Positions 1,822 through 19,149 of a stretch of 64,000 nucleotides of DNA are shown here, in pieces. Position 1 is the stretch's first letter; each line of letters starts with the position of its first letter. This DNA is from Dictyophora rubrovolvata (lineage: Eukaryota; Basidiomycota; Agaricomycetes; Phallales; Phallaceae). The DNA is taken from NCBI GenBank assembly GCA_029959195.1, contig CP114124.1:1364001-1428000 (forward strand), in the 5' to 3' direction. The position numbers and the translations under genes were made by a program. The notes below the pieces were generated by a model. That model did no database searches. It was not told where the DNA came from and saw nothing but the letters and a program-made list of their open reading frames with translations.

Positions 1822-3945
1822 TCAATGTTTATTGAAATGTCGGATAACGCTTTCGATCTCATTATTGGCCCCAATCAAAGACGCTTCCTTTATATTTACA
1901 GCGAAATTGGCCTCTGTGCACGTACGATTTGATGAACTGAGATTAGGGTACCGTTTCGAAACAAACCACGCCTTCGGTGTTTGAGGCCGAGAAAATATTT
2001 CTTGAATGTCATCACTAAAGAATAAATCAACATGCGAAGACGGGGGAATCAGAAGCCAAATGTTGACTTACTCTTGCATTGACTTATTATTTTCATTCAA
2101 ATATAAAACACCTTCTTTTGAAATAACACCATCCGCGTATGTAAGATTAGGTTGAAAGCGTAAAATATAATCCGATCGTCTAGGCTTAACCGTGCTCCTA
2201 AAATAACGAGTAATCAGCTTATGAAAAATTTGGGGGCTCCCAGAAACCGTACACAGATATATTGTGTTCTAGTGCATCTTGGATCTTTCTGAGAAATCGC
2301 ATCGTATTGAAGAACAGTCGATCTAAAAATTCAGGATTCTTTTCTTGCGACCAAGACACATCGACGACAAGAGCGAATATTGAATGTAACGCCTTCAAAA
2401 CGATATCGGTTTTAACAGCCGAGTAGTAAAGGTGATAGACTCACAGATATGTAAAGCAATTGGCGCGGCTGGGGATCGAGGATATGAGGACCAGGTAAAA
2501 ATATGGACTTCGAGATAAAAGTTGCCGCAGAACCAGAAAATGAGGAAAACAAGTTTGGAGTATCCGAACCTTCCGATACTAAAGGCATGTAGGCATCTTC
2601 AATAGTAGGTACAGAATGATCATTGGTAGTAGTTATGGCATCGTCCAATGCCAACTGATCAAGCTGAACTGGGGAAGTGACCTTATGGTCCGGGGTTGCA
2701 CTGGAAACGGTCAATGCTTCACTTTTCAACTGGTTGATGGTATTTGTATCAGGCACAGTGGCAACATCCGACGGTATGCGTTGCGAATTCTCTGGAGCTA
2801 CTGTTCCTCCAAATGTCAGACTTCCTGGCCAAGACCAATTCTTTATATTCATGACGCTTCCTATCCCAGGACCAAAAAAACCAGAGCTTGTAATCTGTTT
2901 ATCATCACGACTGCCGTTGCCCGATGATAAATTCTCTGGCTTCTGTCCGGCGTTGATCGTCGTCTCAGCATCGGCTGAGCGAGAAACTGACCACAGATAC
3001 CTCAGTAAAGATGAAGGGTACTCGTATTCATCTGAGAAAGTGACAAGATGCGACGATGTAAGTAATATAGGTAACGAATCGGATGGTAGGGTCTTGGCAA
3101 ATTCTGATACTATGGGACGCAAAGATAGATCCGATGAGTGTATATGTGGACCTGTGTGGCCTTGTAAGTGTTGCCGTTGTAAATTAAAGGGAAAAAAAAA
3201 GAAAACCTGATCGATAATACATATCGTCTGACGAGTCGAAATCTAACTGCCACGACCAGGGGGTAAAGAAACGCTCCAGTTGGCGTTGCAGTCGCCCGGC
3301 GGACAAATTAGATGAGAAGGTGCCATGGAGGAGCTATATTTCGGTGTGCAACTGATCTGAGAGGAAGTTAAGAATCGATCAAACTTACTTTAAACTCCTC
3401 ATAGCCTTGAAGAAGATAATCACGCAACAACGCGTCAGGAACAGACTCTTGGTGGTAGTAATTGGTCGTTAAGACGGGTTTATTCGCCTCTTTCGATTTC
3501 TTGCTAGATTTCGGAGTCCGTGCAAGGTTAACGCACTGAAAGATGCCACTTTAGTTTGATGTCTGACCATACGAGACAAGCATTGTGCTTACAATATGCA
3601 TCCAGAAATTAGGCTCAGGAGAGATAGATACCATGTGTTTGCTTTGAGTATGAACATTGTCCACACCGTGATTTGAAGTGAATAATCTATAATCAATCAG
3701 ACAAAGCGCCTGAATTGCATGACCATATGAAAAACATGCCCAGAAAAGCTATTAATTGCTTTGGCCAGTCCTGCTTGTCTGAGCATTGTATCTCTAGAAG
3801 TTACTTGATCTTGGGAGGTATAAAATAAAATATGGGACTCTTCGCGAGCATCTTCATCACTGTCTCTTTCAGCATGCGGTTCAGGAGAGATAGTCGGATT
3901 ATATATAAGAAAATAAGCAAGACTGGGAGGTAATTTGGCACTCAT
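1822..3945 (-). CDS. CCZ1: vacuolar fusion protein Ccz1
   Basis: Subunit of the Mon1-Ccz1 complex, the guanine nucleotide exchange factor that activates Rab7/Ypt7 on late endosomes, vacuoles and autophagosomes. Eight exons (3945-3740, 3686-3593, 3535-3389, 3333-3207, 3160-2445, 2392-2253, 2197-2072, 2014-1822) sum to 1749 nt, giving 582 aa. The first longin domain shows PPSLAYFLIYNPTI, then HILFYTS, MLRQAGLAKAINSF and the signature SPEPNFWMHI. The middle carries FFTPWSWQLDF. The C-terminal domain ends with PKAWFVSKRYP and KEASLIGANNEIES. The protein is longer than human CCZ1 because of a Ser/Thr/Pro-rich insert around residues 200-300. Intron 1 (3739-3687) needs a GC donor to keep frame. The family call is firm. 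Confidence 0.9.
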
Positions 3946-4113
3946 CGAAAAGGGGTGCTGGTAATCATGAGGTCAATAGCCTGAGACGACCCATAACCAC
4001 CCACAAATAAGAAGGTTAAGGTTGCTTAAATTAAGTATTGCTATATCATATCTTATGTACAATGATTTTGAAAGCCAAAGAATGCAACAAAATAAAATAA
4101 AATAACGTGGCCA

Positions 4114-8310
<4,197 letters not shown>

Positions 8311-12660: not shown

Positions 12661-14131
12661 ATGGATCAAGTCAGTTCATTTCAACTCTTGTTGCACATTA
12701 TTCGATCAATCATAGTTCACCTAGGATGCGTTTAGGAAGTTACTGACAGGAGCTAGGCCCTCTTCGAAACTCCAAACAGGCTTTGCTTTACCTCCTCGCC
12801 GCAAACTGCAAGAGTCTACTTCGTCTTCACCTGGATTTCAACCGAGGAAACTCGATCAAAAAAAGCAACGTCCATCTGCCTATAGAGACAGAGCCGCGGA
12901 AAGACGACTCGGAGCAGGTACTGAGCATGAGCCCGTATGTCCATCAGCTACTCATCTATCTAGTACTTCTTTGGTTAAAAGACGCTAGATAGATACATTA
13001 GTGGAGAATAGCGATTCTAAAGATGCCATTTTGGGAGATGGCAGAACAGTAGGCATCTGTTTGTTTCCAGGGCTCTTTAGTTTCGTCTCATATGCGGGAA
13101 AATAGGTAGAAATTCCTCCTGTCAAAGGCTTAGACATTGCAGAGATAGAGCGGTCGAAATTACAAACAAGTACTGTAGAAGAGGATGAGACTCTCGAAAC
13201 AGTTTTTCAAGAAAGTCGAACCAAACTGGACGCTTCGGACAGTACCAGTAAAAAGCGCACTCGCGATGATCTCATTCGTGCACTGAAAGAACAACGCGCA
13301 AGTTCCAATACTTCAAAAGATCTGTCCTCCGATTCTGCCTTTGAAAAAGCCAAACAGCTTGGAAAGTTCAAGCCTATAGGCGCTCCAGGTATATCATCAA
13401 AGACCAAAGTGAAGCACCGAGGTGAGGACGGTGTGACGAAACCTAAAAAGAAGAAACAGAGAGCACGATCCCCAACTAGCGGTAGCAAGGAAATCGAATC
13501 CGAACCTACAACGCACCAGATGGCACAAACAGAGACGAAAGCTAATATTGGAAACGCACCTCCCGAGTCATTGTCGCATTCTGCTGGAGATGAAGATATA
13601 GATATCTTTGGTGATGTGGAGGAATACAGGGGAGTCAATCTGGATGAAGAGGAAGAGAATGAAGGTATTGTCGATGACGAAGAAGGGGCTATTGATGACG
13701 AGGAAAATTCTCATACCCAGAAGAACAGTTGGTTTGAAGACAATGAACATGGTGACCTTGCCGTTCTTGCTGAGGCCAATGTGTTACAGTCTCCTGTATC
13801 AGGAGATCGTTCTTTGCAGCCCCCTACGCCATCACCTCCACTTGAATTGCAAGCATCAGGATCCACTTCTACTGCACCTACACGCCTACAACCTCTCTCT
13901 TCGTCTTCTATGCCATCGATCCGTGACTTTTTGGACGTGGAAAAGATAGCGGGTAGATATGAAAAACGCCAAACTCGAAAAAAGGCAAAACGAGATAACA
14001 AAGAAAAGGGCGACCAAAGTGAGAAGGTAAATCGTGACTATCAAAAGTAAGTGAACTAGCGTATCTTGGAGTTTCGCAAGTTTCTGATTCCCACCAGGTT
14101 AGATTCATATATGAAAAGCAAAGGAGGTTGA
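12661..14131 (+). CDS. RED/IK-type spliceosomal protein
   Basis: Homologue of RED (IK), the partner of SMU1 in the spliceosomal B complex. The first exon, 12661-12669, holds only ATG plus two codons. The others are 12725-12917, 12993-13048, 13106-14046 and 14098-14131, for 410 aa. The N-terminus reads MDQDAFRKLLTG and then AYRDRAAERRLGA, the RED_N signature. VKGLDIAEIERSKLQ follows. The middle is Lys-rich and acidic with DIDIFGDVEEYRGV. The end, VNRDYQKLDSYMKSKGG, fits the family tail. The intron after RRLGA (12918-12992) has a second possible donor at 12937, so a few residues there are uncertain. The 3' part, including its last intron, is duplicated at 17553. Confidence 0.85.
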
Positions 14132-14350
14132 TCTTTGTATCTGTATGTCTATGCACGACTTTAACAATATAATCTAAATTTGTATTGCGTGTATCTATTC
14201 CCAGCTTGTGTTTTGTCGTCACAGCAATGCTGGTTTGTCATGAAGTCTAACGTGCTGTCGAGGTGGTTCCACCGCTCGTGTACGCTGACCAAACGTATAG
14301 TATAATCAAAAAGCGAGACCCGACAGAACAACAGCTCAGTTTATATCTCC
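14021..14350 (+). repeat. direct duplication, copy 1 (RED 3' end plus PQ-loop gene 5' fragment)
   Basis: Starts inside the last exons of the intact RED gene and continues past its stop into a shortened copy of the 5' part of the PQ-loop gene. The block at 14257-14330 (GAGGTGGTTCCACCGCTCGT onward) matches 17890-17955 almost base for base. Relative to copy 2 it lacks about 110-130 bp covering the PQ-loop start codon and first exon, and the donor after the GACTCGACAG exon has changed from GGT to GAA. The PQ-loop piece here is therefore dead. Confidence 0.9.
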
Positions 14351-14420
14351 GGGATGCCAGACTAAACGTACCGATGTGCTACGGGGGTATCTGTGAGTTG
14401 AGTTATCTTCTTTGCGTCGC

Positions 14421-14932
14421 GATATTAACCGTTCGATAAGCTGTTTTTGCGGTTCGGTTACCGATCCTAAGCCAGGAGTTTCAACACCCCACAGGTTGGT
14501 TATATCTTATGTGCTTGTGCCAGATGAATCAAATGTATCTTACATGCGTATGCCAGCTGCGGTGCATCCTGTACTCGTCAAAGAATGGCGTGCGATCACC
14601 CATGTCCACTAAGCTGTCATCCAGGTATGTTCAAACACTTTTGTTACGAATAGTCCTAACTTGGTGTCAAAGGACCATGTCCCCCTTGCAATCTAACCGT
14701 CTATGTTACTTGCCATTGCGGAAAGGTAATCAATGCCGTCCGCTGTGAAAATTCTCATCCTGCAGACCAAGCCGTCAACTCCTGCGGTGCAATTTGCGGC
14801 CGTTTTCCTCAATGCCAAACTCACTCATGCAATCGTCCATGTCACCCTGGGGATTGTGGAGGATGTGATAAATTTGAGGATATAACCTGCTTTTGCGGAC
14901 AAACGACGAAGGGAGTGCAATGTGGAACTTAG
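14421..14932 (+). pseudogene. NFX1/FAP1-type zinc-finger fragment
   Basis: Three spliceable pieces encode repeated NFX1-type Cys-rich fingers: SISCFCGSVTDPKPGVSTPH; SCGASCTRQRMACDHPCPL with SCHPGPCPPC; then YVTCHCGK, HSCNRPCHPGDCGGCDK and ITCFCGQTTKGVQCG, ending in TAG at 14930. Joining uses an intron at about 14495-14553 (AG|C completing Ser) and another starting at the GTATGT near 14622. A full NFX1/FAP1 protein is about 1000 aa, with a RING-like PHD finger before the fingers and an R3H domain after them. Neither is present and no start context is visible, so this is a fragment of a host gene, not a working copy. Its intact parent is not in the window. Confidence 0.75.
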
Positions 14933-15428
14933 TGGCTTAGAGCTGGCCCGTGAAGCTTACGTTCCAGACGCTGGTCGGGACGCTTTGACTTTGGTGGCAC
15001 ATGTGAGAGGTATATATTCCTGACTTTATATTTTACCACATATTGAACCATTTTGAGAGATTTACCATTCTGCAGTTGCGCAAATTACTCCCCCTCGTCT
15101 TGATACGTCGGGTAATGTTAATGTCAATCTGATGGGGATGAATGCTGGAACGAGTCTGGTGGTAAGGTCAGGTATGCATGCACAATGGATTGACACAAGA
15201 GCAAATTGAATGGCTGTATCATTCACAGCTCTACTGGATGCGTGCTTTTCATTTTTATTCATTATCGTGATGTTAGAAGGAGTTTTTCGGTGGTATTAGG
15301 GTGATCCACAGATGCGTGCTGCTGCCGCTAATGCTCAGATGGCATATGCTCAATCCCCGCCACAAGTGACAGCCTCAGACTCCGCAACAACAAATCTCGT
15401 CACCGCGTCCACCATCAGTACAACCTGA
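14925..15428 (+). pseudogene. unidentified coding remnant next to the NFX1 fragment
   Basis: Overlapping the end of the NFX1 piece in another frame, codons for LAREAYVPDAGRDALTLVAH run to a GTATAT donor at about 15011. A second open piece has VAQITPPRLDTSGNVNVNLM and MNAGTSLV, and a third has MRAAAANAQMAYAQSPPQV and ends at a stop near 15426. The amino-acid composition looks coding and splice-like boundaries separate the pieces, but I cannot name the parent gene. It may be the continuation of the NFX1-bearing gene after a frame change, or a piece of another gene joined to it. Confidence 0.4.
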
Positions 15429-15929
15429 TTCTCATGTTACTCCAGCACCAGCCCCACCGTCATAAACAGGAACCCGGAATTTTTGCATAAAAACGGACCC
15501 CGGATGGACATTGCCGCTTCTTCAAATGGTCCTTGTTTTTTGTTGGAACATAAGGTGTGTCTCATAGATTAGATATCTGTATTGTTCGTGAGGTGCGATT
15601 ATACATTTGGTTGTATTATTGGAAAACGAATATAATGGTTTCAATATGCTCAGATACATATAATATGCAGTGACTTAGCAGGCGTTCGCAGTGGTCTCAG
15701 GATTTCAGAACTGATTCTTTAGGGTATCCTTTTTTTGGTAGGAGGAAGGTAATGCCTTCCTTGATGAATCTCAGTTTAAGTTCAGACTGAGGAATACATT
15801 CTTTCTCTATTTTTCGGTTGAGATATACGCAGGTGTATTGTAATATGAAATGCACGACGTATAAGAGAAATAAAACAATACATGAAAGACCTCAATAAAG
15901 GACTTGTAAGTGGTACGAGAAGCGGCATG

Positions 15930-16241
15930 ACTTTCGCCATAACTATGTTCCCCTGTGCAGGCATTGTGAAAGAAAAACGGGGAATGTATTTTCGAAAACT
16001 TTTAGCGCGAAAATATTCGATAAGCGAAAAACCGGTGAGAGACCTGCTTTGAGTGAAAAGATTGCGTACGAAGGGAAAGCGCATTCAATCCCTTCACACT
16101 CAATCATCCCACCTAAAGGTGGTCCTTCATTGATTCTCCGCTTTTCAAAATCGTGGAGCTGAAAGTTTTTTTAAATACATTCACCGCTCTTTTTCACGAT
16201 GCCGGAGCAAGAAAACATAGTCATGGCGAACTTGCCCATAT
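15930..16241. repeat. imperfect inverted repeat, arms about 80-90 bp
   Basis: The minus strand of about 15930-16014 and the plus strand of about 16155-16241 are diverged copies. Both contain an AAATACATTC block, a pyrimidine run with TTTCAC, then ATGCC(T/G)G(C/A) and AACATAGT(T/C)ATGGCGAA. Each arm could start a short peptide reading MPAQGNIVMA or MPEQENIVMA. A perfect 6-bp palindrome (CCACCTAAAGGTGG) lies in the spacer near 16110. It could be a fold-back element, or the 5' end of a gene copied head to head. Confidence 0.55.
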
Positions 16242-17552
16242 CGCACCATAGTTCAAAAAAAAATTGATCAGCCCAATGTCGCAAAGAGGTTATACGAGCA
16301 AATCCGCCATTAACGCATGCTTGCTAACCTTCGGTGCAAATGTATCGGTGGTTCGACCAGCGAGCGAACTGAACACTTTTGATTGAGAAAAAAAAGGAAT
16401 ATACGTTTACCTTACTACTGACAGAGAAGGTATTTTGATATTGTGTGCTTCGACCATTTGCCAACAATTGAAGATCTGAACACCGCTGTTGGAAGCTGGA
16501 GATTCGCTGTTGACAGAACCGAAACCACTTTAAATGTGAGGTGGAGGAAAGTTGGTGTTGCCTGCATCTTGGTATGCACAGGGGTCGGCAGCTGCGAAAA
16601 TTGCACTAGAGACATTGACCACGATGACATTGCAACGGCGCTCCTCCGTTAGGGGTGTTGCAATCGTTTTTCCAGCCCTCGATAGTGTCGATGATGGTTT
16701 GGGCGATTCAGTCTTTTAAAGGGAAGGCTGCCGAAGTTGATCATATGGTATAGTTGGAAGCCCCCATTCAAGCGTGCGAGACGAGACAAGGTAGGGAGGG
16801 GATGTTTGTTGTTTGGAGAAACCGACTGCATGTGTGATGGGTTTATATACATTTCTTCCATCAAGAGTGTCCATGCAGCAGGACGGAGGTTGTGTCCAGA
16901 ACCTGCTGGACGAACGGAAAATTGAGCAAGACGGTGACCGATCCGTCCACTGTTGTTCTCCAGCGCTAAACCGGGACGACTATACCCTTGCATCCTGCAA
17001 GGGCTCACCCACCCCGTAGAAGGGGTTTGGTTCGAGATAAGAGATTAGAATACAACCTTGAGGAAGAGGTCGAAGACCCAAAACTAGTGCCGGGTCATAT
17101 GTAAATCAATGATACCAATGTCGAAAACTTAAACAACATAGGCGAGACAACCATAAAATGACAGCTGACACGTACGTTCACGGAACACCGAGGATCTTCA
17201 CGAGCCCAACGACTTACATGAATTGGGTGTAACCAGCGCTGTATCTGCTAGATGTTCAAGGGTAGAGTGACTGGAGGCGCTTCAATTTCAATGGCATGCA
17301 ACTTCTAGCGGACCCGTAACATTTAAAGTCAACCGAGTCAAACTTTGGTGAGAGCATGAAAAGTACGTAATTCGGTCCAAGGTATCGAGGGCACGGTATT
17401 TGTAGCGGGAAGGTCTGTATGGAGATGTCAGGACTTAGCACGCCCAGCAACATTCCGCTCAACATTTGCAAAGACTGTACTCTAAACGTCGATTTCAACT
17501 TACTAAAGTTATATGTGAGTTTGAGAATATACATTGTTGCTGTAGAGTTTAT

Positions 17553-17981
17553 GAGAAGGTAAATCGCGATTACCAGGAGTGGGTGAACTAGCGTATTTTG
17601 GAGTTTCTCAAGTTTCTGATTACCACCAGGATAAATTCATATATGAAGAGCAAAGGAGGTTGATCTTTGTATCTGTGTGTGTATACATAAACTTTAAAAT
17701 ATAATGTAATTTTGTAATGTGTGTCGGCAATGCTGGTTTGTCAGACGACCGCCCAGTCGACCACCAAGTTTTGATTCCGACCGTTATGATGTTGCTGCTA
17801 CCTGGATGGATTCAGACAGTAGCCAGTGTGGGGATGGCAGTAAGTCTTAAATACGTCCGAATGAATGTCATCGAGTCTTATGTGCTATCGAGGTGGTTCC
17901 ACCGCTCGTGTACGCTGACCAAACTTATAGTATAATCAAAAAGCGAGACTCGACAGGTACAACAGCTCAATTTATATCTCC
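17553..17981 (+). repeat. direct duplication, copy 2 (RED 3' fragment plus PQ-loop gene 5' end)
   Basis: Begins with a decayed copy of the RED 3' end. The motif around GAGAAGGTAAATCG, the last intron and the ATGAAGAGCAAAGGAGGTTGA tail (one base past the stop-codon A excluded) are all recognisable. The intron donor reads GTGGGT instead of GTAAGT, and the sequence before it lacks the RED coding context. It then runs straight into the intact 5' end of the PQ-loop gene. Each host gene therefore keeps its good copy on the outer side, and the inner copies are worn. Confidence 0.9.
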
Positions 17982-18931
17982 ATCTCCATAATCCACGTTT
18001 AATCATTATTAGGTTTCTCACATGATATCTGTGGAATACTCCTTATTGCAAATATCACCAGGTGCTTTTACTGGTTAGGGAGTCACTTTGAGACAGCGTT
18101 GTTGATTCAATCTCTCCTTATGATACTCGCTCAAGCAAGCCTTCCATTTTCAAGTACAATCATCCATTTACTCATCTTGCTATATCTTAGCTACTATTAC
18201 TATACATCTGTCTTCGGTATCGTCCCTCGATTTCTCCTGAAAACCTAGGGTTGTCTTCGCGACCGTTCTCATTTTGGCACTGGCCGTTCTACTGGAATTA
18301 CATCGAATTTCTTCTCGCCTTAATGTGCGTTTTAAAATTCCAGGGATTCATTCTTCACTGACGCGCTTACCTTCGAGCATAGTTTATGTCATATCATACT
18401 GTATTTGATCTTCGGCTCAACCACCTACTACATAGACGTCTTGGGCTTCGTTGCTCTGGGAATTGAAAGTTTGCTCCCGGTACCGCAACTAATCAGGTAA
18501 AGTTTTGTATACCAGGTGCCTTGGGAAAATACTAATACTAATGACGTCTTTCAGTAATTTCAAGCGTCGTTCTCTATGGGGCTTTAGGTTGTCGACGTTG
18601 TTAGGATGGATGGGTGGTGATGCATACAAGTAATTCCCTGCTTTTGACGACATACCGGAAAATTAGTAACCGTGCATCGACTTCCAGGACTGTTTACTTT
18701 TTTATTCAACACTCCCCTCTGCCATTCAAAGTAGGGGCGATATTTCAACTATCGGTAGATTTCGGTACGTGAGTTAGTACTGCGAACTACATACAAAGAT
18801 TAATATCTGTTTTGAAAGCCATTCTAATTCAAAAGATAGTCTATGGAAGTCCTCCCCCGACCGTGGTGCTGGAAGTCGAGGATCTTGAGGAGCAGGAACT
18901 GGTTTTAGACGAGGAAACCGGGAATGCATGA
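17786..18931 (+). CDS. PQ-loop repeat membrane protein (SLC66A2/PQLC1, yeast Any1 family)
   Basis: Multi-pass membrane protein of the family linked to endosome/trans-Golgi lipid asymmetry. Eight exons (17786-17839, 17893-17956, 18013-18134, 18191-18324, 18383-18496, 18555-18629, 18688-18764, 18819-18931) give 250 aa. First PQ-loop region: VVPPLVYADQTYSIIKKRDS then TGFSHDICGILLIANI. Second: LGFVALGIESLLPVPQLIS, FKRRSLWGFRLSTLLGW and GDAYKTVYFFI. The RPFSFWHWPFYWNYIEFLLAL link is typical of the family. The acidic tail ends EETGNA. Intron 3 (18135-18190) needs a GC donor (GCAAGC). Two adjacent ATGs at 17786 and 17789 are possible starts. The promoter overlaps the duplicated block. Confidence 0.88.
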
Positions 18932-19149
18932 TAACCTCATATTGTTCTGTACATGTGGAAACTTATTTAATTTAATGTGATTATTTACTGGTTCGAGGGT
19001 ACTTGAGTGACTGAACCGACTCCCGCGGCGGTAAACAGCGTGAGAAAGCGACCAAACATCTTTTGCAACTTGCAACCCATCCACGTAACGTCGTTTCTCC
19101 TTCTCTCAACTTTAGCCTCGTATAATACTAGTGGTCGAAAACAAAAATC

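Follow-up and report, generated by a model that had tools for sequence, protein, structure and literature searches.

The junction between two neighbouring genes of Dictyophora rubrovolvata, a RED-like gene and a PQ-loop gene, is present twice in direct orientation on contig C8, and a 3,201-bp insert of other DNA lies between the two copies. This arrangement lies in a 64-kb stretch (C8:1364001-1428000; hereafter the window, to whose first base all coordinates without a contig or stretch name refer). The genes of the window are rich in introns, as would suit a basidiomycete. The simplest history starts from a single junction, of which some event then doubled several hundred bases around ectopic DNA. 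With regard to this event, we lean towards the repair of a DNA break with duplication of the target, followed by stepwise change inside the insert, and prefer this explanation to a tandem duplication that was subsequently overwritten.

Two copies of one gene junction flank the insert

A comparison of the whole window with itself (low-complexity filtering, E ≤1e-3) returned two blocks as the only direct repeats. Block 1 pairs 14020-14192 with 17552-17724 at 86% identity, and block 2, which is colinear with block 1, pairs 14236-14350 with 17866-17981 at 91% identity. Between the blocks, a 17-mer common to both copies is found in the corresponding order (14224-14240 and 17727-17743). The two blocks score 199 and 161 bits, whereas in 100 shuffled versions of 13501-18500 (Markov-1) no non-self direct match exceeded 30.1 bits. 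No further match for either junction copy was found in the genome searches, which covered 28.2 Mb in 11 contigs. Throughout this study, the absence of a genome match is weak evidence: only the best candidates were scored, and a 34-bp match at 17236-17269 was missed by one search.

Each copy continues without interruption through the last intron and the stop codon of the RED-like gene into exon 2 and intron 2 of the PQ-loop gene, so that the two are copies of one junction. The upstream copy occupies 14020..14350 and the downstream copy 17552..17981, both on the plus strand, with other DNA between them (14351-17551). The alignments thereby confirm the initial annotation, made from the sequence alone, on two points: an insert of 3.2 kb is bounded by direct copies of host gene ends, and both copies span the same junction.

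The two copies differ in their condition. The outer ones, that is, the RED-like gene on the left and the PQ-loop gene on the right, are open as far as they were read. The inner PQ-loop copy, which forms part of the upstream junction copy, is clearly dead: it lacks a counterpart of 17744-17870, a 127-bp segment of exon 1 and intron 1 that has a TGTCA word at either end in the downstream copy, and its GT donor site of intron 2 is gone. The upstream copy also carries 29 extra bases ahead of the shared 17-mer. In the downstream copy, the 5′ end of the PQ-loop gene is preceded by the inner RED-like fragment (17552 to ∼17662), which is truncated on its 5′ side and starts within the coding region. 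This truncation is its sole certain damage; frame, splice sites, and stop codon are still open, and a comparison by eye with the outer copy revealed exchanges of K to E and LD to IN. The inner copies had been described as worn, which applies to the PQ-loop fragment but only in part to the RED-like fragment, which is truncated yet reads open.

A patchwork of fragments makes up the insert

Decayed remnants of genes and repeats follow one another in the insert. The piece adjoining the upstream junction copy (14345..15063, plus strand) derives from C8:1353323-1354056, 25 kb away on the same contig, to which it is 93% identical in inverted orientation. It represents an internal part of a gene with open exons, which on our own reading we take to resemble NFX1/FAP1-type zinc-finger proteins and refer to as NFX1-type. 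The zf-NF-X1 family scored 18.0 bits on a joined reading of the source gene (cut-off 22.7), and four single frames of this gene gave no Pfam match. The introns are retained in the fragment, which was therefore copied from DNA; an origin as a retrocopy is ruled out by their presence. At the left edge, three bases (TCC, 14348-14350) are common to the PQ-loop fragment and the NFX1-type source. This is the only insert junction with a known donor.

For the following stretch (15064..15919), which may contain the remains of two coding exons, the genome search returned no match, and a possible exon pair in 15060-15480 found only itself. Next comes a foldback (15920..16292, plus strand), which is self-complementary at 70% over 15933-16230, about 300 bp. 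It is followed on the minus strand by a dead gene fragment (16296..16980), an internally shortened member of a small family whose proteins are apparently secreted, judging from the N-terminus. Protein matches to this family were obtained on C9, C7, and C2 (two), all four of them near full-length, together with a distant match (39%) on C11 and a degenerate copy on C6; one or two stops were counted inside the C7 and both C2 matches. Family members are located at 4989-5687 of stretch L013, 5454-6140 of L014, 4895-5551 of L016, and C2:2965050-2965712 (in L015). The one member tested had no Pfam match over the cut-off. A single other copy of the foldback was found (C6:913121-913497, 80%). On C6, too, it precedes the degenerate copy of the same gene, in the order and orientation seen here and ∼4 kb apart, and each of the two foldback copies found in all stands beside a degenerate gene of this family. 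The pair looks like a unit existing apart from the site described here.

The next 39 bp (16983..17021) form the edge of a dispersed element, and C1 and C2 carry exact copies of them. The genome search gave 17 entries for this element, query and window included. In a one-by-one comparison based on a 113-base reference, 13 of these 17 loci start with TA or TT followed by CCCTT. The end of locus L052, GATGCAAGGG, mirrors the element start, CCCTTGCATC, and locus L053 has GATGCAAG at the last base read. The most similar element copies contain a perfect hairpin, located here at 16985-17003. We considered this hairpin as a Helitron end, taking fungal Helitron ends for comparison from PMC5148889, and rejected it: the TA/TT + CCCTT starts and the mirrored end of L052 favor an element with terminal inverted repeats (TIRs). 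The dispersed element is likelier a short one of this type, resembling miniature inverted-repeat transposable elements (MITEs). A tRNA remnant at 16980-17040 was likewise discarded, with no prediction by ARAGORN and none by Rfam apart from two sub-threshold chance matches.

The remainder of the insert consists of a stretch matching C9 (17025..17269, plus strand; C9:369311) and a last segment (17270..17551). The C9 match has 81% identity over 17025-17235 and 88% over 17236-17269, the two parts being separated by a gap on C9, and no open frame of at least 80 amino acids overlaps the matched C9 stretch. The last segment showed no match to the DNA of the PQ-loop gene and the clathrin-type gene downstream, to the rest of the window, or to the genome. 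Eight open frames of the insert, from 14660 to 17636, had no Pfam match at E ≤0.1. A comparison of the two insert edges over 200 bp yielded no inverted match longer than 7 bp, and over 600 bp no direct match at E ≤1. With neither TIRs above this length nor long terminal repeats (LTRs) at these edges, the earlier view that the duplication is too long to be the product of a transposase is upheld.

The NFX1-type piece is less diverged than the junction copies

The locus had initially been pictured as the result of a single event, and this picture is not borne out by the divergence of its parts. The alignment of the two junction copies has 35 differences in 288 sites, compared with 32 in 715 for the NFX1-type piece and its source (P = 3e-5). 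A similar result was obtained for noncoding sites, with 25 of 164 differing in the junction and 7 of 210 in the NFX1-type introns (P = 5e-5), the 3′ ends assigned to introns B, C, and D being approximate in this comparison. Because the piece is far less diverged than the junction copies, the insert was presumably either built stepwise, the NFX1-type piece being younger than the duplication, or this piece was partly reset by gene conversion with its source.

A run of 178 bp within the piece (14402-14579), which includes both exon and intron sequence, is identical to the source. Runs of this length were reached in 53 of 20,000 permutations, and the run suggests ectopic gene conversion with the source gene. 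The outer parts of the piece differ at 26 of ∼381 sites, still below the value of the junction copies (P = 0.02, with the cut chosen post hoc).

Break repair with target duplication as the preferred explanation

We read the two copies, the mosaic between them, the disabled inner PQ-loop copy, and the unequal divergences as traces of a DNA break that occurred long ago, close to the start of the PQ-loop gene. Its repair would have left ∼430 bp of the RED-like/PQ-loop junction on either side of ectopic DNA, and two routes could lead to this outcome: template switching may have led the copying away from the site and back into it upstream of the break, in a “cycle” of templated insertion, or widely staggered nicks may have been filled in while other DNA was captured between the ends. 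The duplicated piece holds the 3′ end of the RED-like gene together with the start of the PQ-loop gene and its upstream DNA, so that both genes could survive, and it is presumably for this reason that the rearrangement could persist. Both inner copies would then have drifted. Later change between the copies would have added the NFX1-type fragment or homogenized it by conversion with the source 25 kb away, and the MITE-like edge would have been left in the insert as a later addition. Break repair is supported by the finding that the ectopic DNA includes one piece with a traceable, intron-bearing source. The colinear junction copies without a further match in the genome, the three-base overlap at the PQ-loop/NFX1-type edge, the lack of TIRs and LTRs at the insert ends, the contrast of open outer copies with a disabled inner PQ-loop copy, and the unmatched segment 17270-17551 speak for it as well.

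Several observations weigh against this explanation. No source was found for ∼1.1 kb of the insert (15064-15919 plus 17270-17551), and the places that match other pieces at ∼80% are probably not the true donors. Moreover, the piece now touching the PQ-loop fragment need not stem from the first event, and its three-base overlap is weak evidence of anything. Of the break repair proposed initially, the duplication around ectopic DNA thus remains as the most economical reading, while the addition of all this DNA in one piece and at one time is improbable.

The initial annotation had offered tandem duplication with internal replacement as a second possibility. In this case, the RED-like 3′ end and the PQ-loop gene would first have been duplicated in tandem in the ordinary way, and the spare PQ-loop gene would have decayed and been overwritten by deletions and insertions. 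Such a history would agree with junction copies that are more diverged than the NFX1-type fragment, with the layering of the insert, and with at least one further deletion in the upstream PQ-loop copy. However, the DNA from downstream of the PQ-loop fragment that such a duplication would place before the second junction copy was not found: 14351-17551 has no match to the remaining PQ-loop gene or to downstream window DNA, and 17270-17551, right before the second RED-like fragment, is unmatched, so that the trace of the joint would have to be wholly gone. We therefore rate this possibility below break repair and consider it rather unlikely, though worth keeping in view.

A single burst of multi-template copying, in which the NFX1-type piece was later rejuvenated by gene conversion, seems improbable to us. 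It would account for the 178-bp identical run, and it is consistent with the location of source and copy 25 kb apart on one contig and with the outer parts of the piece, which come nearer to the junction value. These parts are nevertheless less diverged than the junction, if judged by a cut chosen post hoc. The foldback and the degenerate family gene are also found together on C6, and the 39-bp edge is unchanged relative to two other copies, both of which argue against a common burst.

An assembly artefact, with two haplotypes joined in tandem, is very unlikely. The divergence of the copies is of a size that could occur between the two nuclei of a dikaryon, but the disabled inner PQ-loop copy and the mosaic insert, whose pieces resemble other places in the genome and not allelic sequence, speak against it. 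Hardly any weight can be given to a transposable element or captured-gene transposon such as a Helitron as the carrier of the fragments, which would fit a gene-fragment mosaic containing a hairpin-bearing element edge: this hairpin belongs to the short dispersed element that looks TIR-type and lies 530 bp inside the insert end, the insert edges lack TIRs and LTRs, a flanking duplication of several hundred bp is no target-site duplication, and the genome search listed no other copy of the whole 3.2-kb unit.

Relation to known products of break repair

Among known systems, the nearest description of the preferred explanation is a cycle of templated insertions, in which copying runs through a series of templates and then back into the host chromosome, where a host segment is replicated a second time. 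In the 2020 Nature paper describing them, such cycles are somatic structural variants of human cancers (PMC7025897). The D. rubrovolvata locus shares with them a host segment that recurs, in the same direction, at either end of the inserted DNA. As to templates remaining elsewhere, one is clear for 14345-15063; 15920-16980 and 17025-17269 have matches at ∼70-88%, the 39-bp edge has one at 100%, and the searches gave none for 15064-15919 and 17270-17551. Of the short microhomologies expected at template switches, TCC at 14348-14350 is the one that could be read. In contrast to the somatic cycles, which are read as single events, this is an old germ-line locus of a fungus with unequally diverged pieces.

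Vaughn and Bennetzen reportedly explained tandem duplications in rice by patch-mediated break repair in 2014. The target is directly duplicated at an insertion in the present case as well; unlike in the rice duplications, the copies lie 3.2 kb apart with ectopic DNA between them. The duplicated target measures 430 bp. According to PMC8355091, the model traces natural insertions to breaks that arise from neighbouring nicks on opposite strands and leave the target directly duplicated. Similarity also exists to replication-based complex chromosomal insertions, presented in PMC5120786 for human constitutional cases studied by array and fluorescence in situ hybridization, whereas here only one junction is readable, with a short overlap. 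A narrow literature search returned no fungal case of this layout, which is no proof of absence.

Genes at the site and repeats in other stretches

The RED-like gene extends over 12725..14130 on the plus strand (open frames; start approximate), with its last intron at 14047-14097 and a stop codon ending at 14130. RED_N scored 16.5 bits on the exon frame 12725-12988 (Pfam cut-off 22), and neither the main frame of 314 residues nor the joined reading of 395 residues matched a Pfam family. The PQ-loop gene (17716..18960, plus strand; ends approximate) scored 19.7-20.4 bits against the PQ-loop family, below the cut-off of 22, the value of 20.4 bits being that of the first exons. In a PDB search, the RED-like reading gave no match and the PQ-loop gene gave matches only at E 0.48 and above. 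The gene names of the initial annotation are thus weakly supported. The next gene, from ∼19150, contains a clathrin propeller repeat scoring 29.5 bits, over the cut-off.

Direct repeats of at least 60 bp were present in 4 of 12 genome stretches (168,210 bases), the present case included; the stretches were not chosen at random, and the count is no measure of the rate of this structure across the genome. L011 contains a nest of repeats and L013 adjacent short repeats. L016 carries a degenerate direct duplicate (21-1249 and 3315-4512, 72-86% alike in pieces) ∼3.2 kb from an open frame of 526 amino acids. We take the open frame and its degenerate copy, by their resemblance, to be an F-box-like gene pair.

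Implications for compact genomes

The locus is most simply understood as an individual scar of a known type of repair with later debris, and no new mechanism is indicated. A broader proposal, that break repair in this species habitually duplicates several hundred bases of its target around captured DNA and that captured fragments nearby keep converting with their source genes, is one we regard as very unlikely; if true, compact gene junctions would take insertions without loss of either gene. For the present site, we would have a legible relic of break repair that duplicated its target within a compact eukaryotic genome, and drift and possible gene conversion can be compared there in place. 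An insertion into a gene junction would be tolerable here, since each gene keeps one complete copy after the duplication.

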